From: a virus
Direction: 5' to 3' (one strand)
Virus record (IMG/VR): IMGVR_UViG_3300045970_001354
Coordinates: 1-41,595 of that record
DNA length: 41,595 bases
Both the position numbers and the translations under genes were made by a program. Positions 1 to 38,457 of this stretch are shown in pieces (the stretch's first letter is position 1; each line of letters begins with the position of its first letter). The notes under the pieces are model-generated. The model saw only the letters and a program-made list of their open reading frames with translations, ran no database searches and was not told the DNA's origin.

Positions 1-1368
1 ATGAGCATCGAAAGTCTCAAGCCCGCCTCGATCCGCTCCCGCCTGATTCTCTGGCTGGGTGTCGGTCTGCTTCTGATGTGCGCCGCTTTCCTGTGGTCGG
101 TCTATGACAAAACTCTGCACGAGGCCGCAGAATTGATCGACGGCGATCTGGTCAGTGTGACCCGACTCGGCATGCAAACGGTCGTCGATCAAGCGCAAGG
201 CGCGCCCCTGGCCAGCGACAGCCCCATAGGCAAGCACGATTACGAAACGCCGATGGTCTTGCAAGCGTGGAGTGCCGACGGAGCGTTGATGGTTCACATC
301 GGACCGCCGGCAGGGGGCGTTCCAGCGCCCAAGGCACCCGGATTCGCCGATTTCCGGATCAACGCCAAACAATGGCGCAGCTTTGCGGCATTTCGACCGA
401 AGGAGCAGCTTTGGATTCGCTCCATGGTGGCTGCTGATGCCCGCAATGCACTGGCGACCGATGTTGCCGAAAACATGCTCAAGCCAGGGCTGATTCTGAT
501 CCCGGTGATGCTGCTGTTCGTATGGGGACTGGTCACCTATGCACTGCGGCCGCTGGCAAGATTTTCCAGTGAGATAGAGCGACAGGACATCAACGCCCTG
601 TCGAGCTCCGCGCTCCGGACAGGCGTCACGGAAATGAAGCCGGTGGTGGACGCGATCAATTCTCTGGTTGGCCGCCTGCGCGATGTGAGGGAGCGAGAAC
701 TGTCGTTCGTGGCCGATGCCGCTCATGAGCTTCGCACGCCGTTAGCCGGCATCAAGCTTCATGCCGAAGTTGCGCTGACGGAATCCGATCCTGAACGCTT
801 GCGTGCGGCACTGGTGCATATCGAGATGGGCAGCAAACACGCGGCCGACCTGGTCAATCAACTGCTTGGCCTGGCAAAATTCGACGCGGTCCAGCAACTT
901 GATTTCAAACCATTGGCGGTGGCCGATGTCGTGCGCCGCGTATTCTCGACCCTTCTGCCGCTGGCCGACGACCGTGGTGTGAATCTGGTCGCCGACGGAA
1001 ATATCGAGCTTTCCGCAAGCGGCGACGAGAGCGCTCTGGAAATCATGTTGCGCAATCTGGTGGCGAATGCGATCAATCATTCACCCGTTGGCGGCCGCGT
1101 GACGGTAACGGTAGCGCAGCAAGATAATCGCAACGACCAGCTTATTCTGTCCGTCGCGGACGAAGGCTGCGGCATCGACGAAGCGGATCGCACAAGAATC
1201 TTTGAGCGTTTCTCGCGCTTGCCGGGAACCCAAACGCCGGGTTCCGGACTCGGTCTGGCCATCGTTAGTCGCATCGTCGGCCTGCACGAAGGGACGATTC
1301 GCGTGGAGAGCAGCGTAAACGGCGGCGCGCTTTTTATTGTGACATTACGAGTGGTTCAGTCTTCATAA
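1..1368 (+). CDS. Two-component sensor histidine kinase (QseC/TctE-like)
   Basis: Inner-membrane sensor kinase of 455 residues, host gene outside the prophage. Membrane segments lie near residues 15-34 and 162-182 and enclose a periplasmic sensor region of about 125 residues. A HAMP-like linker follows. The H-box has phospho-acceptor His242 in DAAHELRTPL. The catalytic domain shows the N-box (N356, N359), G1 box DEGCG (387-391) and G2 box GSGLGL (414-419), so it should autophosphorylate and pass phosphate to a response regulator, which would lie upstream outside the window. The signal sensed cannot be told. The gene is intact and ends 25 bp before the putative prophage target duplication, so the phage inserted just downstream without breaking it. 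Confidence 0.93.
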   Translation: MSIESLKPASIRSRLILWLGVGLLLMCAAFLWSVYDKTLHEAAELIDGDLVSVTRLGMQTVVDQAQGAPLASDSPIGKHDYETPMVLQAWSADGALMVHIGPPAGGVPAPKAPGFADFRINAKQWRSFAAFRPKEQLWIRSMVAADARNALATDVAENMLKPGLILIPVMLLFVWGLVTYALRPLARFSSEIERQDINALSSSALRTGVTEMKPVVDAINSLVGRLRDVRERELSFVADAAHELRTPLAGIKLHAEVALTESDPERLRAALVHIEMGSKHAADLVNQLLGLAKFDAVQQLDFKPLAVADVVRRVFSTLLPLADDRGVNLVADGNIELSASGDESALEIMLRNLVANAINHSPVGGRVTVTVAQQDNRNDQLILSVADEGCGIDEADRTRIFERFSRLPGTQTPGSGLGLAIVSRIVGLHEGTIRVESSVNGGALFIVTLRVVQSS

Positions 1369-1504: not shown

Positions 1505-2299
1505 TCAGAACAAGCCACCCATCGCTGCCGTATCCCAGTTCGTAATCACCAGTTCCTTGCTGGTCTGAGGTGCACCGTGCGCGCTCCCGATCGAGTATTT
1601 GATGTCTAATCCCAGCATATCAAAGCCGTTAAACACCCGTCGAATGTCCGGATGATCGTTGATGCTCACCATCACTTTACCCTTGCATGTACGCATCACA
1701 TCGGCCATCTGCTCATACTGTTCAAAGCCGAACTCCACACCATAACCCTCTGTCTGCCAATATGGTGGGTCCAGGTAAAAGAACGAATAGGGCCGATCGT
1801 AGCGCTTCATGCAGTCTTGCCAGGCAAGATTCTCGACGTATGTACCGCCCATCCGCAGACAGGCCGCGCTCAGACTTTCCTCGATTCGGCATAAGTTGAT
1901 CGCCGGACCGGTGGTCGCCGTGCCGAACGTCTGGCCTGTGACCTTCCCGGAGAACGCATGCTGTTGCAGGTAAAAGAACCTTGCCGTTCGTTGGATATCG
2001 GTCAAGGTTTCCGGCCTTGCCATCTGCTGCCATTTGAATATCTGGCGGCTGCTAATCGCCCATTTGAACTGGTGCACGAACTCTTCCATATGATGCTGGA
2101 CCACTCGGTACAAGTTGACCAGCTCACCATTGATATCGTTGATGACCTCAGTTTGTGCGGGCACAGGCCGCAGGAAATACAGCGCCGCGCCGCCGCAAAA
2201 CACCTCTACATAGCACTCGTGCGGGGGAAACAGCGGGATAAGCTTGTCGGCCAGTCGCCTCTTGCCGCCCAGCCACGGAATGATAGGACTCGAATCCAT
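1505..2299 (-). CDS. DNA adenine methylase, Dam/D12 class
   Basis: N6-adenine methyltransferase of 264 residues using S-adenosylmethionine. Motif I appears as PWLGGKR (8-14), an FxGxG-type SAM-binding loop, and motif IV as DPPY (177-180), the catalytic signature of the D12 class. VEVFCGGAAL (31-40) is the conserved acidic segment after motif I. Length is normal for phage Dam enzymes. It has its own Shine-Dalgarno (AAGGAA) before the ATG. It is the last gene before the phage right end, the position of the DNA-modification gene mom in Mu, so a role in protecting phage DNA from host restriction is a reasonable inference. The recognition sequence cannot be told from sequence alone. Confidence 0.9.
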   Translation of the reverse strand: MDSSPIIPWLGGKRRLADKLIPLFPPHECYVEVFCGGAALYFLRPVPAQTEVINDINGELVNLYRVVQHHMEEFVHQFKWAISSRQIFKWQQMARPETLTDIQRTARFFYLQQHAFSGKVTGQTFGTATTGPAINLCRIEESLSAACLRMGGTYVENLAWQDCMKRYDRPYSFFYLDPPYWQTEGYGVEFGFEQYEQMADVMRTCKGKVMVSINDHPDIRRVFNGFDMLGLDIKYSIGSAHGAPQTSKELVITNWDTAAMGGLF

Positions 2300-2439: not shown

Positions 2440-2904
2440 TTATTTGCGCAGCGTCCAGAAGTCGTCAGATAACGTCCTGCTCGCCAGATACGGGAATGGA
2501 ATGGTGAATCTCCCCGCCCGTCCCCAGCCAGACCACCAGGAGTTTTGAACCAGGAAGCGCGCGGCGGACTGGTCGTACCCGACAGCCATCACAGCATGGC
2601 CGCCAAGCGGCTTTTCTGTTTTCGCTGGCATGTTGAGTATCCCGGTCTTGGCCACATCAGCGCTTTCAAACGCATCGTATACAGTGAAGCCGAACACGAA
2701 CGGGAACCCCGCCGCCAAGCATTGCAGCATGTCATTGATCGATTGCAGGCGCTGATACGACGATATGGTCGCTGGCAACGCATCTGCGTAGCACTTGGCC
2801 GTAAGATCAACCTTGGTCGGGATCGCCACCGGCGCCGCCACGTACAAGTGATCACGATGGTCGGGAAGGTCCGGACGCCACGTGTAATTGCGCTTCTGCT
2901 TCAT
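2440..2904 (-). pseudogene. C1A (papain-like) peptidase with internal deletion, catalytic Cys lost
   Basis: The 154-residue product begins like bacterial C1A peptidases (YTWRPDLPDHRDHLY, then KVDL at 31-34) and then jumps directly to the C-terminal half. There the catalytic His (H103 in GGHAVMAVGYD) and Asn (N121 in VQNSWW) are present. From knowledge of the family, about 100 residues between these parts should carry the oxyanion Gln and nucleophile Cys (GxCxxN/W block); they are absent, with the reading frame kept. It is probably inactive as a protease. A good ribosome site (GGGAGG) precedes the ATG, so it may still be made. It sits between a decayed GH19 gene and the methylase. Confidence 0.7.
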
Positions 2905-3052: not shown

Positions 3053-3274
3053 TCATATCTCGATCAATTCGATTGCCAGTATTGGCGCAATACCTTCGAT
3101 GACACCGTCACGCACAAATACCTTCTGGCCTACTGTTGCTTCGCCGCGCGCCAGTACGGATCCGCCAGTCGGAAGCAAAACATGGCAGCCGCCCGAAACA
3201 GAAGATGTGACTGTCCCGATCAGCAGAGGTGAATCGGGAATCAAATCGCGGAATATCTTGTATATATTAGCCAT
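3053..3274 (-). CDS. Small conserved tail-tip-region protein, function unknown
   Basis: 73 residues beginning MANIYKIFRDLIPDSPLLIG. I chose the ATG at 3272-3274 over an upstream one because it gives an 8-bp overlap (ATGGCTAA) with the preceding gene's stop, as in neighbouring coupled genes. The sequence is rich in beta-forming residues and glycine (TVTSSVSGGCHVLLPTGG) and ends in an acidic hydrophobic tail, which would fit a small barrel-like virion or assembly protein. No motif is recognised. Its place directly after the tail-hub-like gene suggests a tail-tip role. Confidence 0.7.
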   Translation of the reverse strand: MANIYKIFRDLIPDSPLLIGTVTSSVSGGCHVLLPTGGSVLARGEATVGQKVFVRDGVIEGIAPILAIELIEI

Positions 3275-5147
3275 ACGTTTCCAGTTCGATCGTTTGCCGA
3301 ATGGACGGCATGACAGCATTAGCCGAAACACCCTTGACTAATCCTATGCGCGCATTCCCACCATCGACGTAACGCAGCACCGTGCCAGGCTCGATAATCC
3401 CAGTCTCGGACAGCACTGGAAGGCCGAGTGTATACATCGTCTGTCGGCCTGTTGCAGAAAGCACCTGAATCCCGCGCTGGCGCCCAGCATCTGCATGGGT
3501 AATCAGCGAGTCGATGATCATCTGCGACTGAACATCGCCAGCGGTACCTGCGCGCTTGACGCCGCACAGCACGCCGCCGGTGGTTGACCCACTGATATAG
3601 ACACCGTTGTATGCCGGCAGATCGGCCCAGGTAATGCCCTCTTGCGTGATGGCAGAAGACGGCAATTCAATGTCCGGCGTAAGCGAAGTCCAGTCCCATG
3701 GCGCGGCTGGATAGCGCGGCCTCACGCGCAACGTCTGAGTAACCGGGTCTGGCTGGATGAATGCGCCGGCGGCTGCCGCAATGGCATTGACGGCGCTGAT
3801 GTGCGTCCCCTGGTGCGTCCAGGCGCCCGCAGGGACTAGCCAGTCGGTAATTCTCCAATCAATATCCCAGCCAATCGAAACGCCGCTTTCGGTAAGCGCG
3901 TCATTCATCAGTTGCTGCGCCGTGCGCTCGCCAGTGTTGGTGAAAGTGAGAATTCGGCAGTAAGGATCGGATAGGCGCGCAGATTTACCCCGGCCTGTAA
4001 CGTTGATCTTGCCTGTCGGGAATTGCCGATCGCGCGTGATGTTTTCGGCGAGCAAACGATATGACGCGCCGTTGATCGTCGCTTCAAGTTCCACCGGCTC
4101 TCCCGGCCCGCCCGGCATCAAGTTTGAAAGACATGAAGCGTGAAGCGACGCGTTAAACGACCATACCCACGAATCCATATCGATCGACAGAGCGAGGGAG
4201 AATGTCGTAAGTTCTATGTCGCCGTCTACCCGGTGCAGTTGTACGCTGTTTATCACGATGTAAGTCCTCTTGACCGGAACAAGCGCCACAGGAGGTCTTT
4301 CCCGCAATGCCTCGCAACGGAATACGATGTTTTGTGTTCTTGTAAGCGCCTCAACGAAGCGCAGATCAACATGGCCGGCTGCCGGAGGCGTATAGCACCG
4401 GCTCGACGGTGGCGCAACGTATGAGGTCCCGTAGAACCCGGGCGGCAGATGCCTGGCGTCCTGCCAGTACGTTTTGCGCTGGGATGCAATGCGTGTCGCT
4501 TTCGCGCTGGACGATCTGCGCTGAATCTCCGCGCGCCGGCAGAGTTGCCATGGGTTACCGCGTTTCGGGCGCTGCGTTCGGTCTCTATCCTGCCAATCAT
4601 TACCCCTGATGGTGTTCAATCGCTTGGCATCTTGATGGCGCTCCGAGCGGTCAAGATGGACGCCTGCCATATCCTGGTACCGGTTTGACAGATCGCTTTC
4701 AGCTCGATTGCCATCCTTCCAGTCTGCCGCGTGCAGCGGCATCTTTGCGGTCGACGACTGTATTGTTTGCCGATACAAATTTGTCAGTTTGCTTGCGTCC
4801 TGATGTGGTTGCCTGGTAACAGCATGCGTCTTCGCGCCGTCCTGCATCGCATCCAGTGTGATTGCCGGAAGGGCGGCGCCGTCCTGCCAAACTTCTGATG
4901 CCCTGCCGTTCGGACCGCGATAGACTGAGTTGTCATAACTCATCGCCGATACCATCGTCGGTCGCGACCGGGTGGCGCTAACTTCAACACTGCGCGGCTT
5001 CGTGAGTTGGATAACGAGCGTCGGCCGCCGTCGTGTAGCTACGATGCCAAGGTAAGATTCTCCAACGACACTAACCGGCGCGCCGAACCTCAGGTCGACA
5101 GGATGACTCGTGTCAAGTGGTATGCCGAACCGCAGAGTCACCGCCAT
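3267..5147 (-). CDS. Large tail-tip/hub-like protein with 14-residue tandem repeats
   Basis: 626 residues. The N-terminal 70 residues are beta-rich with two related RRRPTLV / RSRPTMV segments. Residues 87-241 form a regular 14-residue repeat headed by an aromatic or His residue plus QD (WQDG 87, MQDG 101, HQDA 115, WKDG 143, YQDM 157, HQDA 171, WQDR 185, WQDA 228). Residues about 290-626 look like a tail hub of the kind found in non-contractile transposable phages (ENITRDR..., GTHISAVNAIAAAAGAFIQPDP, LRVRPRYPAAPWDW). It lies in a tightly packed tail-tip operon after the tape measure. Assignment as hub is inference from position and general resemblance. Confidence 0.7.
   Translation of the reverse strand: MAVTLRFGIPLDTSHPVDLRFGAPVSVVGESYLGIVATRRRPTLVIQLTKPRSVEVSATRSRPTMVSAMSYDNSVYRGPNGRASEVWQDGAALPAITLDAMQDGAKTHAVTRQPHQDASKLTNLYRQTIQSSTAKMPLHAADWKDGNRAESDLSNRYQDMAGVHLDRSERHQDAKRLNTIRGNDWQDRDRTQRPKRGNPWQLCRRAEIQRRSSSAKATRIASQRKTYWQDARHLPPGFYGTSYVAPPSSRCYTPPAAGHVDLRFVEALTRTQNIVFRCEALRERPPVALVPVKRTYIVINSVQLHRVDGDIELTTFSLALSIDMDSWVWSFNASLHASCLSNLMPGGPGEPVELEATINGASYRLLAENITRDRQFPTGKINVTGRGKSARLSDPYCRILTFTNTGERTAQQLMNDALTESGVSIGWDIDWRITDWLVPAGAWTHQGTHISAVNAIAAAAGAFIQPDPVTQTLRVRPRYPAAPWDWTSLTPDIELPSSAITQEGITWADLPAYNGVYISGSTTGGVLCGVKRAGTAGDVQSQMIIDSLITHADAGRQRGIQVLSATGRQTMYTLGLPVLSETGIIEPGTVLRYVDGGNARIGLVKGVSANAVMPSIRQTIELETYG
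4425..4889 (-). repeat. Coding tandem repeat: eleven 42-bp units, [W/H/Y/M]QD[G/A]
   Basis: Residues 87-241 of the tail protein divide into eleven units starting at 87, 101, 115, 129, 143, 157, 171, 185, 200, 214 and 228. Spacing is exactly 14 residues except one unit of 15. Seven units begin with an aromatic/His/Met residue followed by Q/K-D. Units are degenerate at DNA level, so the repeat is old and kept by selection on protein structure. Confidence 0.8.
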
Positions 5148-7127: not shown

Positions 7128-10100
7128 TCAAGGTGTATCAATATCGCCTCTTATCAAGACCTGGAAGCTGTCCGAAGCTGCGCTGGACGGTCCCTGCTGA
7201 ATGGTCCGCGCAATCCATACCGGATAGAGCGCGCCGATGGTGTTGAATCGCAGCACATTCCCAGCGGCCCAGCCTGATCCCCATCCCGTTGCAGGAATCG
7301 AGAAGTACGGCGCGCCGGCTGCAGTATTACTCGGTGCGCAGTCGGACGACACGTTGCCGGTGGCAATCACGCCCACATGCTCACCGATGACGTTGAACGC
7401 AGTGGTGTTGGTAAATTGGATAACCCAGCGTTCCGTGATTGCCCCAGCGTTGGTCACGACGATCGGCGCAAGCACATCGTTAAATGTTGCGGTCGCAGCG
7501 GACCCGGACAGCGTGTCGAGCCAAGTCGATGCCCAGGTCGCCTGATCGAAGAGACTCGATACCCGTGCATGCATGTCACCGATGATCAGTGCCGAGCTGG
7601 CGTAAGACCCGAGCGGGAAGTCGTGCGTGAGTTGACGAGTCAACGACAGGTCACCGCTGATCTGCGCATCGGATACCAGTGCCATATCCTCGATGCGATG
7701 ACTGATCACGACAGGTTGACTGTAGCCAGCCACGGATGAGAACGTCACCGTGCCGGCGTCGAGGTTGACCGTGTACCCTGCGGTGATGACGACACCGTCA
7801 TTGCCAGTGACCGTGAGCCTGGATAACCGAGTGCGACCTACATCGACCGTCTGCCCGTTCGATACAGTCTGTGAGGCGCGCACAGTCGTGTGATGCACGA
7901 CCACTACCCCGCCACTACGGAAGATCGGCACACGCCCGTCTGACGGCAACCGGACAGGGTCCAGGCCGATGATCGACGCATCCAGTGGCATGGACGATAC
8001 CACCACGGCGTTGTATTTGATCGTGGCAGGGAAGACTTCCACTGGCTTCCAAATGTTGCCACTGACGATGTTTCTGGCGTCGTACCACCACTTCGATTCA
8101 TTGCCCGCCGCTGTGACCATCTCGCCGAAGCTGACATAAACGACGCCGGTCACGTAATCTACAACGCCCTTCATCTTCGTTCCTGCGATCGTGCCGCCTG
8201 TGTTCGATGTCCCGGTAATCAGATCCCCGTCGAGCGATGTGGCTTGCACATATACGCTAGACACGCGAATCGGTGCGCCGGCGGTTCTGAATGCGGCAGT
8301 CGTTGCGGATCGTCCGCCAAGCGAGCCAAGGCAGGACTTGACGGTGATGGTTGGACTTGTCGGCCATGTCGTGAGCGAAATCCGGCTCGTCGAATAGTCA
8401 ATGACACCAACGTCTGTTCCGCTGCCGGTGATATAGCTCGTATTCCTGTACAGTACCCCGCTGCGATCGATATAGATGTCCGTACCAATTACGAAGATGA
8501 CGCCATTCGGCAGGATCGCTTCGTAAGAATTCGGCACCAGATCACAGACAAGATTCGGGCTGAATGTTTCATCCGCGGCGGTCGTTGTGCCGACGCTTCC
8601 GGCTGCCTGATACGAGACTGTTACCGCAACGTCGAAAGCCGCAGCGAACTGGCAGGAAATGACGCTTTGCCCGTTGTAGGCATAGGTGTATGTCGGATCG
8701 ATCCCCGTCGGCGGCGTCGAGGTCCAGTCTCCCACCGGATAGTTGATTGAGGTATCCGGCAGAAAGTTAATGATCCCGGTCGAATAATTTACCGTACCGA
8801 CCGTCGTTCCGTCTGCCTTTTTGAGACTGCCCGCACCATCATCTGTCACTGTGACTGTAGTGGTAATAACCCGGCCGGGTGCAACACCAGCCCCGTATGA
8901 CACCATGTAGACCGGCCACGATACCTTGACCGTCTTCTGAATAGGGTTTGCCGTGAGCCCGACCGACAGGGTCAGATCGCCGCCTCTGACGATGCTGGTG
9001 AACGTCTCGGTACTGGTCGCCGGTACGCCCGTTGTCGTGCCATGCTCGTACAGGACTTCGATTGGCGTTCCCTGATCGTGCACATCATTGATGACGATGA
9101 CACCGGTCAGATAATTGATGGTTCCCGTCACGCCGTCGCCGGACAGCACGCCCGTTCCTGAATCGGTTAGCGTTTTGGATACACCGCCCTTGGTCAGATG
9201 CACAGTCAGGCTTGATCGAGTAGCAGATCCTTGCGCAAGCGTGAACGTCGAAAAGAATCCGCTTGCCCCAGTCGTATGCACGGCGGTATCGACTTGCGAC
9301 CCCCAGGACAGCATAACTGCGCTTCCCACATCTGGCAGAGCGCCAAGCGTCACCACGGAAGAGCCGGTTATGTAGCTGATCGTCCCGGTTCCATCTGCAG
9401 TCGAGTACCCAGTAAGAACGCCAGCGCCATTGTCGGTCAACGTGTACCACGTACCCATTGCCAGAAAACTTACCGTGAGCGTGCCAGGCGCAGGGATAGG
9501 ACTCAAGGTTTTGACATACACCTGCCCGCGCGTTGCAAGCGTGATCGGGATGGATGATGTGAATGCCGACTGAGAAACCCGCGTCCCTGGCGTGTAGGCA
9601 ATCGTCGGAAGTGTCCCGGACCATGCGGTTGTCTGCGTCAGATCCGGTGTAATCACGCCGTTGGCATAGTCAATCGTCCCGACAATGCTGCCGCTAGCGA
9701 GTACGATATTACCCGCGCCGTCATCTGTCTTTGGCCAATAGTCCGTTGTTGCTCCGTTGGAAAACGTGACCGAACGAGGCGTGATTCCACCGCGCAGGTA
9801 GAGCGTCTTGATCGCCGATCCCCATACGGTATTTGGCTCGGTAATCGCTGGTCCTGATGCGATGACTTGCACGGCACCGGGGATTTCACCCAGCGCAATC
9901 GGTGTTTCAATCGTGGAGCTGGGAACGAGGTTGGTATAAATGCTGCTGGCCTTGACAGTCAGCGCGCCAGTTGTTGCGGCCTCTGCCAATGCGGAAATTC
10001 CGTAGTACGTCGAGGCATCTGCCACGCTTGTTCTGCGTACCTTGGCTGATCCAGACAAATTTGCTTCACTGAGGATGCGCATCGGCTCCAGGCCGGTATA

Positions 10101-10712
10101 TGTCGCCGTCAGTGCCGATGAGATTCCTAGCGTGATGACGCGATATTCAAATGTTCCTTTTTCATCCTCGAATGTCGCTACGATACTATCGACTGTTGTG
10201 ATGCGGACGAATTGCTGTGCCACAACTGTTACTGTGATTCCGGATTGTGTTTCCAGAGAAAGCGCCAATACGTCGCCAATCTGAGGCAATGCCAACTCCT
10301 GGCGTTGATACACCACGATGGCGCGCTGCCCGATGTTCTGTGTTCCATACAGGATCATGTTGGACAGTGGTCCGGCAATGACATACGACTCCAGACGGTT
10401 CTGTGCGTCCGACCTGTGATCGAACCCGCTACCTGTGCTGAACAGCGCGCACGACACGCGCGGATCGGCGGGAGGTTGCGCGACGATGACATTGGCGCCG
10501 TAGTACCCGTCTGTATCAGGCGTCGCAACGGACACGAAAGTTTTGCGCAGGTTGACGCGGCCGTATGCTCGATCTAGTTCCGAGATATCTGGAAAGATGG
10601 CATTGCTGGACCCGTCCGCGATCGCGGTACCGGTTGCGCGGCCGCCGCCTTCCGTGACATCGTCCATAGTTGCTGATTTCAGCAGTTTGATATTGGATTC
10701 TAGGATGCTCAA
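7128..10712 (-). CDS. Very large repeat-containing tail protein (1194 aa)
   Basis: Starts at TTG with a good GGAG site 9 nt upstream; the first in-frame ATG is at residue 16. The central half (residues about 325-865) has six imperfect copies, roughly 75-125 residues apart, of a motif TDDGAG.L...G..VGTIDYxTGVI, probably beta-sandwich or beta-solenoid repeats. The N-terminal 300 residues and C-terminal 250 residues are non-repetitive. It is the first large gene after the tape measure and its 133-residue companion, where siphophage-like transposable phages encode tail-tip proteins. No catalytic motif is seen. Confidence 0.75.
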   Translation of the reverse strand: MSILESNIKLLKSATMDDVTEGGGRATGTAIADGSSNAIFPDISELDRAYGRVNLRKTFVSVATPDTDGYYGANVIVAQPPADPRVSCALFSTGSGFDHRSDAQNRLESYVIAGPLSNMILYGTQNIGQRAIVVYQRQELALPQIGDVLALSLETQSGITVTVVAQQFVRITTVDSIVATFEDEKGTFEYRVITLGISSALTATYTGLEPMRILSEANLSGSAKVRRTSVADASTYYGISALAEAATTGALTVKASSIYTNLVPSSTIETPIALGEIPGAVQVIASGPAITEPNTVWGSAIKTLYLRGGITPRSVTFSNGATTDYWPKTDDGAGNIVLASGSIVGTIDYANGVITPDLTQTTAWSGTLPTIAYTPGTRVSQSAFTSSIPITLATRGQVYVKTLSPIPAPGTLTVSFLAMGTWYTLTDNGAGVLTGYSTADGTGTISYITGSSVVTLGALPDVGSAVMLSWGSQVDTAVHTTGASGFFSTFTLAQGSATRSSLTVHLTKGGVSKTLTDSGTGVLSGDGVTGTINYLTGVIVINDVHDQGTPIEVLYEHGTTTGVPATSTETFTSIVRGGDLTLSVGLTANPIQKTVKVSWPVYMVSYGAGVAPGRVITTTVTVTDDGAGSLKKADGTTVGTVNYSTGIINFLPDTSINYPVGDWTSTPPTGIDPTYTYAYNGQSVISCQFAAAFDVAVTVSYQAAGSVGTTTAADETFSPNLVCDLVPNSYEAILPNGVIFVIGTDIYIDRSGVLYRNTSYITGSGTDVGVIDYSTSRISLTTWPTSPTITVKSCLGSLGGRSATTAAFRTAGAPIRVSSVYVQATSLDGDLITGTSNTGGTIAGTKMKGVVDYVTGVVYVSFGEMVTAAGNESKWWYDARNIVSGNIWKPVEVFPATIKYNAVVVSSMPLDASIIGLDPVRLPSDGRVPIFRSGGVVVVHHTTVRASQTVSNGQTVDVGRTRLSRLTVTGNDGVVITAGYTVNLDAGTVTFSSVAGYSQPVVISHRIEDMALVSDAQISGDLSLTRQLTHDFPLGSYASSALIIGDMHARVSSLFDQATWASTWLDTLSGSAATATFNDVLAPIVVTNAGAITERWVIQFTNTTAFNVIGEHVGVIATGNVSSDCAPSNTAAGAPYFSIPATGWGSGWAAGNVLRFNTIGALYPVWIARTIQQGPSSAASDSFQVLIRGDIDTP

Positions 10713-35398: not shown

Positions 35399-36163
35399 TT
35401 AAACCCTCCGTTCCGGCGCGCGGTCGCTTGGCAGCGCAATGCCCGTCAGCACCTGCGTACTCACTTCATCCAGCGCATAAAGCTGACTATGCTCATGAAT
35501 GGCGGTCAGGCAATTCACGACGCGGCGCACTGAGCCCTTCGACAGCGTTACCAGCTTGATCAACACATCATCGTCAATGCCGATACCGGGGCAATAGATC
35601 GGCGCCAACTTGGCGGCATCCTCTACCGTTACCTTTTGCGCCGGCGCCCATGTCGATACGCGCGAGTGGAAGCGCTCCCACGCTTCCAGCTTGCGGGGCA
35701 GCAGCTCTTCGCCGACCAGCAGCAAGGAGCCCTGCGATCCTTCGTAGATGTCGCGCGTCAGCTCGACTAGCTTGTGACTCTCGGTTGCGTGGTCGAACTC
35801 ATCAATAATCAGTGTGCGGCGCGACGCGGATAGCTGTTGGTTCACCATATCGAGCAGCTTCGACACCGTTTCCTTGCCGTGTGCAACGCCCATTTCAGCA
35901 AGGATTTTCTGTAGCAGGTCTTTGCTGCGCCACGCTGACAGCATCTGTACGTAGTAAGCGCGGTTTTCGTTGGCGAGCGTGTTGGTCGAGAACGTCTTGC
36001 CCCATCCGGACGGGCCGTACAGCACGCCGATGCCGGGTACTCCAAGGCGACGGTTCGCTAGACGTTCCAGAGTAGCCGCGACCATATCCAGCGTGGCAAT
36101 CGGTGCCACTCCGCCAGTCGGCCGAACCGATACCAGCTTGCTCATTACAAGATTTTTAGTCAT
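35399..36163 (-). CDS. B: Transposition target-selection ATPase, MuB-like
   Basis: 254 residues, AAA+ ATPase. Walker A GPSGWGKT (50-57), Walker B TLIIDEFDHA with D121-E122, sensor region QGSLLLVGEELLPRKLEAW. MuB polymerises on target DNA, delivers it to the transposase and gives target immunity. Adjacent to and just after transposase A. It lacks a large N-terminal HTH domain and is shorter than Mu B (312 aa), similar to B3/D3112 forms. Confidence 0.93.
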   Translation of the reverse strand: MTKNLVMSKLVSVRPTGGVAPIATLDMVAATLERLANRRLGVPGIGVLYGPSGWGKTFSTNTLANENRAYYVQMLSAWRSKDLLQKILAEMGVAHGKETVSKLLDMVNQQLSASRRTLIIDEFDHATESHKLVELTRDIYEGSQGSLLLVGEELLPRKLEAWERFHSRVSTWAPAQKVTVEDAAKLAPIYCPGIGIDDDVLIKLVTLSKGSVRRVVNCLTAIHEHSQLYALDEVSTQVLTGIALPSDRAPERRV

Positions 36164-36171
36164 AATCCGTT

Positions 36172-38457
36172 TCAGTTATTGGTTTTGAAATGCGACACGG
36201 TGCCAGCCGTGTCGCGAAGTCCCAGAGCAGCCCGCGCCTGTGTATCCGCGTCGCGCCTCTTCATCACAGCAAACTCTGGGTGCATTGGGTAAGTGCCGTA
36301 CCAGCGTGTCAGTTTTGGATCGTCAAGCGTTCCTCCCATTTTTAAAAGTTCATCTAATTCCTGCCATTTTCGGTAACGCAGTTGCGCTGTTTCCGGGATG
36401 ACGGAAACCTTTTCCGGTTCCGGTGTTGATGGTGCCGCAGGCGCTTCACGTTCGGCCTGACGCTTGTTCATAATCATTTGCAAATCACCGGGTACTTCGG
36501 TCGTCGGCACCGCGCCGTCGAGCGTGCGCGCTGCACGACCAGCCGCAGTAAGAGCGGTGGTCGTGTGCGTTTGAGCGGGTGCCGGTAGGGTGACCAATTT
36601 GCCGGCGGCTTCGGCCTTGCCTTGCAGGTAGCTCGACACCAGGGCGTCCGGGTCCAGCTTCGGCATCTTCGCGGCCTTGCGTTGCTCCGCAATGTTCTTG
36701 CGCTGCAATTGGCGGGCGTGGCTGGCGATCTCCTGGCGCGATATACCGGTACGCTCGGGACAGCGCGCCACGCAGACAAATTTGCCTTCGTGATACACCA
36801 CGATCTGACCGTAGTCGTCGGTCAAATACACTTGCACCGTTTTGCCAACGATCAGTGCCAGCTCCAGCGCGATGAATTGCGCGCCCATGATGTTCAAACC
36901 TTTTTTGACGACGACGTAACTACCTTTGCCGGCGGGCGGTGCCAGCAGAATATCGAGTGCGCGTTCGTCGGCGATGCGGTGCACCTGACCTCGATAAGCG
37001 GCGGCTTTGGCAAAGGGGGACAGGCCGTCCATGTGCGCGCCGCCGTGAGGTCGCTGTTCATAGACGCCGGTCAGCCATTGGTTGATGCGGGTCTGCAGCA
37101 ACTGTGCCGGCATCGCCATTTCCACCAGATCGGTATCCTTGGAAAACAGGCGTTCAGCAAAGGTGGCGCGCGCCTCAATGGCGTTGCGTTCCGCGACGTT
37201 GTGGCCGATGAAGCTGCTGTACACCTCCAGCACGCTGTGCAACATGGTTTGGTTCATGCGCTCGACATACGGCTTTTCCCAAGGAGAAAATGGGTCGGTG
37301 CGATGGTGCGCGATGTCCAGCATTTTCAGCGTGTTCAAAAAGTCACGGCTAACGTAGTCGGCGCCGTTATCCGTAACGATTTCTTCCGGCACGCCCCACA
37401 GGAGGATCGCCAAGCGCAAGGCCAGCTTGTGTGTCTCGGCGCGCGGCGTTGGCGACATCACCATCAGGCTGCGCTCGCTGTACACGTCGATAATCACCGA
37501 CACGCTGTAGCGCCGCCGCACATCGTCGTCGTCCCGCAGCATCCAGTCGGCCGGGGTCGCATCCATTTCCCAGCGCTGGTTCAACCGCTCGATTCCCTCG
37601 GCGGCATCGCCGAAGGCCACCATTTTTTTATTCTTCCATTCGTCCGGATTGGTGGACGCCAGATAGAATTCGTCGTTTTTCTTTTTCCAGGCGTTGCAAA
37701 AGCGCGTCGTCGCCCAGTACGATGGCGCGGCAAACAGCACCTCGCCGGTATCCGCGTCGACGGCGGCTTGCCCCAGCATTTCGGTCAAGGTTTTCATCGA
37801 CAGATGCGGGCGCATAATCATCAGCGCAATCGTGATTTCCTCCAGCTTGGGATTGCTGGTGAAGACATTCACATCCTTCTTCGCCTTGCCATCCCAATGG
37901 TCGATCAGCCCCGCCAAGCCATCTTTAACGTGCGCCAGCACCCAGGATTCGACCGAGCGGCCCTTTAGCGGCTGGAACTGCTCACGCACTGCGGCGGCGA
38001 TGTCCGTATCATTGGCGTTAAACGCATCCGCATAGGCCCAGTAACTGGCTTTCTTGCCCATCGGCTGGACTGTGGGAAACCAGCGTTCCCAGCTTTTTAC
38101 AATGGAGTAGCGGCCGTCGAAGCGTGCCTGCACCGACTCGGCCAAGGGCTCCATCAGCTTCTTGATGTTTTGTTCGCCCTTGGCTTGCTTGGCGGCGCGC
38201 TCGGCACGCTCCTTGGCTTCGAGGTCGGCCAGCACGCGCATCACATGGGTCGATGACTCGGCCCGCGTCGTGATGGCCTGGTGTTTTTTCATTGCGCGCG
38301 CGACTTCGGCGGGCAGCGTCTCCAACACAAACACCTTGCGGCGGCCGCCGCGCACGGCTTCTGCTTCATACGGCCATGCTTCACGGTTGGCACGCAATTC
38401 GATTGCACGTTTTGTTACGCGCAGAGCTGATGCGATGCCTGTGAGGTCGGTGATCAT
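36172..38457 (-). CDS. A: DDE transposase, MuA-like
   Basis: 761 residues. N-terminal winged helix (about 1-60, ASALRVTKRAIELRANREAW; V..LP.EV) of the Mu type, end-binding helical domains, then the RNase-H-like rve core. The catalytic triad is D299 (EMDATPADW), D363 (VTDNGADY) and E399 (KPYVERMNQT), with exactly 35 residues between the last two. A Mu-type beta-barrel domain (VVVKKGLNIMGAQFIAL) and a C-terminal tail for B contact follow. It cuts and joins phage ends to target DNA. Fully intact by inspection. Confidence 0.96.
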   Translation of the reverse strand: MITDLTGIASALRVTKRAIELRANREAWPYEAEAVRGGRRKVFVLETLPAEVARAMKKHQAITTRAESSTHVMRVLADLEAKERAERAAKQAKGEQNIKKLMEPLAESVQARFDGRYSIVKSWERWFPTVQPMGKKASYWAYADAFNANDTDIAAAVREQFQPLKGRSVESWVLAHVKDGLAGLIDHWDGKAKKDVNVFTSNPKLEEITIALMIMRPHLSMKTLTEMLGQAAVDADTGEVLFAAPSYWATTRFCNAWKKKNDEFYLASTNPDEWKNKKMVAFGDAAEGIERLNQRWEMDATPADWMLRDDDDVRRRYSVSVIIDVYSERSLMVMSPTPRAETHKLALRLAILLWGVPEEIVTDNGADYVSRDFLNTLKMLDIAHHRTDPFSPWEKPYVERMNQTMLHSVLEVYSSFIGHNVAERNAIEARATFAERLFSKDTDLVEMAMPAQLLQTRINQWLTGVYEQRPHGGAHMDGLSPFAKAAAYRGQVHRIADERALDILLAPPAGKGSYVVVKKGLNIMGAQFIALELALIVGKTVQVYLTDDYGQIVVYHEGKFVCVARCPERTGISRQEIASHARQLQRKNIAEQRKAAKMPKLDPDALVSSYLQGKAEAAGKLVTLPAPAQTHTTTALTAAGRAARTLDGAVPTTEVPGDLQMIMNKRQAEREAPAAPSTPEPEKVSVIPETAQLRYRKWQELDELLKMGGTLDDPKLTRWYGTYPMHPEFAVMKRRDADTQARAALGLRDTAGTVSHFKTNN

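Follow-up and report, generated by a model that had tools for sequence, protein, structure and literature searches.

Is the number of units in a tandem repeat of a phage tail-tip protein free to change, so that the repeat could serve as a spacer of adjustable length, or is it fixed? The question is raised by one gene in the window, that is, the whole analysed stretch of 41,595 nucleotides of the viral record IMGVR_UViG_3300045970_001354. An open frame at 3267–5147 (minus strand, as are all parts of the gene given below) encodes a hub protein of 626 residues, and residues 87–241 (4425–4889), as delimited by autocorrelation and by a motif model, form an array of short units. The array consists of exactly eleven units, and this number is constant in nearly all relatives, including those with near-unrecognisable sequences.

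The protein belongs to phrog_6079: its residues 35–624 match positions 27–602 of the 605 in this "tail protein" profile with E 5e-129. The profile covers the hub protein including the array, and the PHROG record states tail protein and nothing further on function. From the N- to the C-terminus, a hairpin-like motif is followed by two beta-type repeats, then by the array, by another hairpin motif and by the hub domain. The first motif (VTLRFG..PVDLRFG, residues 3–22, 5082–5141) has a match in the pattern xDLxF...LVFG kept at the N-terminus of the relatives. The two copies of the beta-type repeat, each about 25 residues long (YLGIVATRRRPTLVIQL and SVEVSATRSRPTMVSAM), occupy residues 31–68 (4944–5057); ATLPxL-type copies of it are found N-terminal to the array in the relatives as well, where, unlike the fixed array, they vary in number (L018, L086, L093). 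The second hairpin motif (CYTPPAAGHVDLRF...NIVFRC, residues 247–281, 4305–4409) resembles the N-terminal one and is conserved among the relatives.

The C-terminal part, residues 300–626 (3270–4250), was modelled by AlphaFold2 with pLDDT of about 95. A Foldseek search with this model matched 3d37, 1wru, 3cdd and 9ki1 at E 1e-15 to 1e-18, with E 3.6e-15 and a TM-score to the target of 0.67 for 1wru and a range of 0.6–0.7 over the matches. The targets are a Neisseria tail protein (3d37), Mu gp44 (1wru and 9ki1), the MuSo2 protein (3cdd) and T4 gp27. Thus this part is predicted, with high confidence, to be a baseplate hub domain of the Mu gp44 (gpP)/T4 gp27 type, in agreement with the first-pass annotation, which had called the product a tail hub-like protein. 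The hubs of Mu and T4 are trimers, and by likeness to them the protein considered here would form a homotrimer. The aligned Mu-type chains are only 325–366 residues long, whereas here the array is situated N-terminal to the hub domain.

A PDB sequence search with the protein yielded a single marginal match, to Mu gp44 (E 0.06), a profile search yielded just one short, marginal match, and no Pfam family matched the protein or 55 relatives. The N-terminal part with the array appears to be known so far as phrog_6079 sequence only. In the literature we found neither a description of the 14-residue repeat nor a solved structure of this tail-tip machine. The siphophage JBD30 has a trimeric tail-tip hub, gp53, which is described as T5 pb3-like with seven domains; this hub is not among the PDB sequence matches or the best fold matches listed for our protein, and the portion of its description available to us contains no 14-residue array (PMC11445458).

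A tape-measure-like gene (1326 residues) and a run of tail genes lie immediately upstream of the hub gene on the same strand, and Acidovorax phage ACF1 has an annotated tape measure in the corresponding position. The window also contains a 1194-residue protein of phrog_6128 (7128–10712, minus strand) with about six DDGxGxL...GTIDYxTGxI beta modules, as counted by eye, which may be a partner for the hub arm discussed below. A DNA methyltransferase gene (phrog_56; 1505–2299, minus strand) is situated downstream of the tail genes. At 2440–2904 (minus strand) there is a remnant of a papain-family peptidase, matching Pfam Peptidase_C1 at positions 110–202 only; it has kept the His (GGHAVMAVGYD) and Asn (QNSWWSGWG) motifs, and the part that usually carries the catalytic Cys is missing. 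At the left end, a gene for a histidine kinase (1–1368, plus strand) is probably the host flank of a prophage. Since a Mu-type transposase is accompanied by an AAA/TniB-like transposition protein (35399–38457, minus strand), the phage is probably transposable.

The array itself was identified in two ways. The BLOSUM autocorrelation of residues 85–245 has peaks at lags 14, 28 and 42 (z 6.9, 5.0 and 3.7), and its maximum over lags was matched by none of 3000 shuffles. A position-specific unit model, trained on the relatives with this protein held out, placed unit starts at residues 87, 101, 115, 129, 143, 157, 171, 185, 200, 214 and 228 with a score of 95.6, compared to a mean of 6.4 and a maximum of 18.3 for shuffled sequences (n=2000) and 9.3 for the reversed one. 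The eleven units cover residues 87–241, the range given in the first-pass annotation, with a spacing of 14 residues except for unit 8, which has 15. There is no second copy of the array elsewhere in the window, the next best frame scoring 14.7.

The odd units, denoted A, are WQDGAALPAITLDA (unit 1, 4848–4889, score 12.5), HQDASKLTNLYRQT (unit 3, 4764–4805, score 12.8), WKDGNRAESDLSNR (unit 5, 4680–4721, score 7.7), HQDAKRLNTIRGND (unit 7, 4596–4637, score 13.2), WQLCRRAEIQRRSS (unit 9, 4509–4550, score 8.9) and WQDARHLPPGFYGT (unit 11, 4425–4466, score 14.5), the last being the best conserved one (WQeAmrPPPG). The even, or B, units are MQDGAKTHAVTRQP (unit 2, 4806–4847, score 11.4), IQSSTAKMPLHAAD (unit 4, 4722–4763, score -4.3), YQDMAGVHLDRSER (unit 6, 4638–4679, score 9.5), WQDRDRTQRPKRGNP (unit 8, 4551–4595, score 11.0), which, with its 15 residues, fits the LRDRR-type unit 8 of the family, and SAKATRIASQRKTY (unit 10, 4467–4508, score 0.4). 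Each unit comprises a conserved head (aromatic-Q-acidic-Ala/Gly-x-Arg/Pro-Leu) and about seven variable residues, which probably alternate in a beta-type manner; most of the conservation lies in the first seven positions. The head proposed earlier, W/H/Y/M-Q-D-G/A, fits only some of the eleven. In this copy it has degenerated in units 4 and 10, which read IQSS and SAKA there, unit 4 being the weakest unit in the whole family and unit 10 weak family-wide as well.

At the DNA level the repeat is hardly visible. Searches by TRF and for exact or direct repeats produced one 12-mer pair and little else in the array region, because the units have diverged, as had been noted at the first reading. At the 42-base lag, 36% of all bases are identical; second codon positions agree in 45% of cases, first and third positions in 31%. 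The earlier suggestion that the 14-residue period is maintained by selection is supported.

To count the units in other phages, we started with the first alignment, which led to 356 relatives in viral contigs; the 80 best of these were read, and other queries added further relatives. Weak members were counted by eye. About 100 non-redundant relatives from phages of diverse proteobacteria have eleven units, with 138–145 residues from the first to the last unit. In 82 non-redundant arrays identified by the unit model, a set selected by requiring at least eleven scored units, this distance is 140–145. When no unit model is used, the last unit lies 148–153 residues from an N-side anchor (Y..x.R[PG]) in matched anchor pairs; the few larger or smaller distances arise where the pattern falsely matched elsewhere. 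In the same relatives the region upstream of unit 1 ranges from 36 to 148 residues, given the start codons as chosen. The array alone, used as a tblastn query against phages, has no match at E 1, and the distant groups, when aligned all together, were too diverse for the alignment to serve as a search query.

Apparent exceptions were reread line by line. Eleven units were found in L093, L070, L054, L037, L084, L034 and L050, and likewise in L004, L031, L058, L080, L099, L045 and L059. The same number is seen in more distant groups whose consensus differs: the Stenotrophomonas S1-like one (L089, L280–L282), the one from Shewanella and Pseudoalteromonas (L090, L177, L182), and those from Vibrio (L283, L284) and Psychrobacter (L088). 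In the freshwater relative L093, the YQxA-type head is present on odd units only (at 212, 240, 268, 296, 323 and 352), with a spacing of 28 residues, and the total length is 140 residues. Counts of twelve in many relatives are caused by a weak pseudo-unit before unit 1 (mean score 5.7), since the anchor distances there are equal to those in relatives with eleven units; that the pseudo-unit is a degenerate twelfth unit seems improbable. Counts of 13–19 in a marine group were a product of an over-fitted model, and this group was recounted by eye from the sequences.

The one clade that differs is of the Pseudomonas type (L005, L087, L261, and also B8b and L285). Here eight or nine units are followed by a hairpin domain and then by three further units, so that the clade seems to have 11–12 units; eleven is thus not absolutely universal. 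In L261, L005, L087 and L285 this domain, with its LxF hairpin, is situated within the array before the final three units instead of after the array.

The units are not interchangeable. For all eleven ranks, units of the same rank in different proteins are more alike than units of different rank, which means that all eleven were present in the common ancestor. Within a protein, the similarity skips one unit, linking i with i+2 (5 and 7, 6 and 8, 1 and 3, 2 and 4), and it is higher between units of the same parity in 87% of the 82 arrays, being uneven along the array: strong for 5–7 and 6–8, weak for 3–5 and 9–11. Covariation, which is inflated by kinship, has a peak at separation 28. An aromatic head residue (W, Y, F or H) is found in 80–98% of cases on the odd units and in 44–49% on units 2, 4 and 10, while on units 6 and 8 it is as frequent as on the odd ones; the odd units also bear the aromatic-Q-x-A head more strongly. 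Hence the array can best be viewed as an A/B repeat with a period of 28 residues that ends on an additional A unit, giving six A and five B units. The outcome named at the first reading as refuting its interpretation, a fold with non-equivalent units, is borne out in part, at the sequence level, by the alternation and the rank identity.

What structure the array adopts was addressed by modelling and by sequence statistics. The AlphaFold2 monomer of the whole protein (55 sequences) has no fold for residues 1–290, with pLDDT of about 30–45 and about 30 in the array. For the array alone, taken from an idealised relative (76 sequences), no confident fold was obtained (pLDDT 59, pTM 0.22). The failure of AlphaFold2 is weak evidence. 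The single long helix in the latter model was rejected given its low confidence and the Pro/Gly content, these residues being frequent at unit positions 6, 8 and 10. In three of the four groups the hydrophobic moment has its maximum at 180 degrees, and in the Shewanella-type units at 60 degrees. Short-range covariation, which kinship inflates, peaks at separations of 1 and 2. The 180-degree maximum and the short-range covariation suggest extended strands, and the array probably has beta structure. An antiparallel meander was discarded, as no clear coupling is seen between adjacent units (gap 1). For units i and i+2 (gap 2), the top coupling signal is the parallel one with difference 0.

The explanation we prefer, with a probability of about 0.5, takes the array to be a structural arm of fixed length in a trimeric tail-tip hub, the arm folding on assembly and its length being set by geometry. 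The arm would connect the C-terminal hub ring to the N-terminal beta-rich module; the connecting role assigned to the array in the first-pass annotation is thereby retained. As a monomer, the arm would most likely be unfolded or extended and would fold only on assembly, which is consistent with the AlphaFold2 models, where the array has no monomer fold, yet the hub domain is confident. The first choice for the folded state is a short beta-structured stalk in which the three chains of the trimer wrap around one another, and the second is docking along neighbouring tail-tip subunits. With the length of the arm fixed by geometry, units would be neither gained nor lost. This explanation is favoured by the near-constant count and length, the rank identity, the likeness of units i and i+2 and the 180-degree hydrophobic moment. 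Against it stand the 60-degree peak of the Shewanella-type units, the 11–12 units of the Pseudomonas-type clade and the low-confidence helix of the second model; moreover, a fixed unit number would be unusual in a simple fibre shaft.

Trimeric beta stalks provide a lead, but only a lead. The adenovirus triple beta-spiral has a repeat of about 15 residues, and the triple beta-helix of T4 gp5 a repeat of 8 residues; such stalks resemble the array in their short repeats, with few conserved positions, and in the presumed trimeric context, and the alternation may be a further likeness. In contrast to them, the array, which has no sequence match to them, combines a 28-residue A/B alternation with a fixed number of units.

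A more doubtful alternative is that the array is a multivalent docking strap, that is, an extended chain whose heads would fit into pockets placed at regular intervals on adjacent tail-tip or tape-measure subunits, the path along them setting the number at eleven. It would account for the conservation of the first seven residues of the units and for the unfolded monomer in the predictions, and the A-type units, being six, could pair with the subunits of a hexameric ring; on the other hand, no partner with matching sites has been identified, and the agreement of six A units with sixfold symmetry may be a coincidence. The specific version in which the six A units dock singly on the six ring subunits at the tail end, the five B units join them, and eleven follows from the sixfold symmetry, seems to us improbable.

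It is also unlikely that the array is a monomeric beta-solenoid, in which 28 residues would make one coil, about 5.5 coils the whole, and the A and B units its two sides. The parallel in-register coupling of units i and i+2, the covariation at separation 28 and the beta-type hydrophobic alternation of three of the four groups all agree with it. However, AlphaFold2 usually recognises solenoids, and none is present in the models with either 55 or 76 sequences; the uneven similarity of units i and i+2 is what old duplications would give. A confident monomer fold with equivalent units, as expected of a monomeric solenoid, was not observed, and the solenoid or helical stalk suggested in the first-pass annotation stays hypothetical.

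The number of units might also be a frozen relic, if divergence had stopped unequal crossing-over and eleven were historical rather than selected. Indeed, the DNA identity at the 42-base lag is too low for homologous slippage. Still, ordinary in-frame indels would continue to alter the length over such divergence, the array changes by single residues only while the N-terminal part varies, and in one clade a hairpin domain is located inside the array, all of which makes a relic improbable as well. Finally, the spacer of tunable length, in which the unit number would vary between phages and set the distance from the virion anchor to the hub, fits the position of the array between two folded or beta-rich parts and the frequent variation of tandem repeats in fibre shafts, but is contradicted by eleven units in every countable relative outside one clade, in an array that has diverged beyond the reach of tblastn, while the upstream ATLPxL region does vary.

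Tandem repeats normally change in number, and the constancy of eleven is the unexpected point. That phages of many proteobacterial genera have preserved this number, in a sequence that tblastn no longer detects, suggests that the geometry of the tail tip strictly requires it. In addition, the array offers a simple signature by which this hub family may be recognised where sequence search fails.
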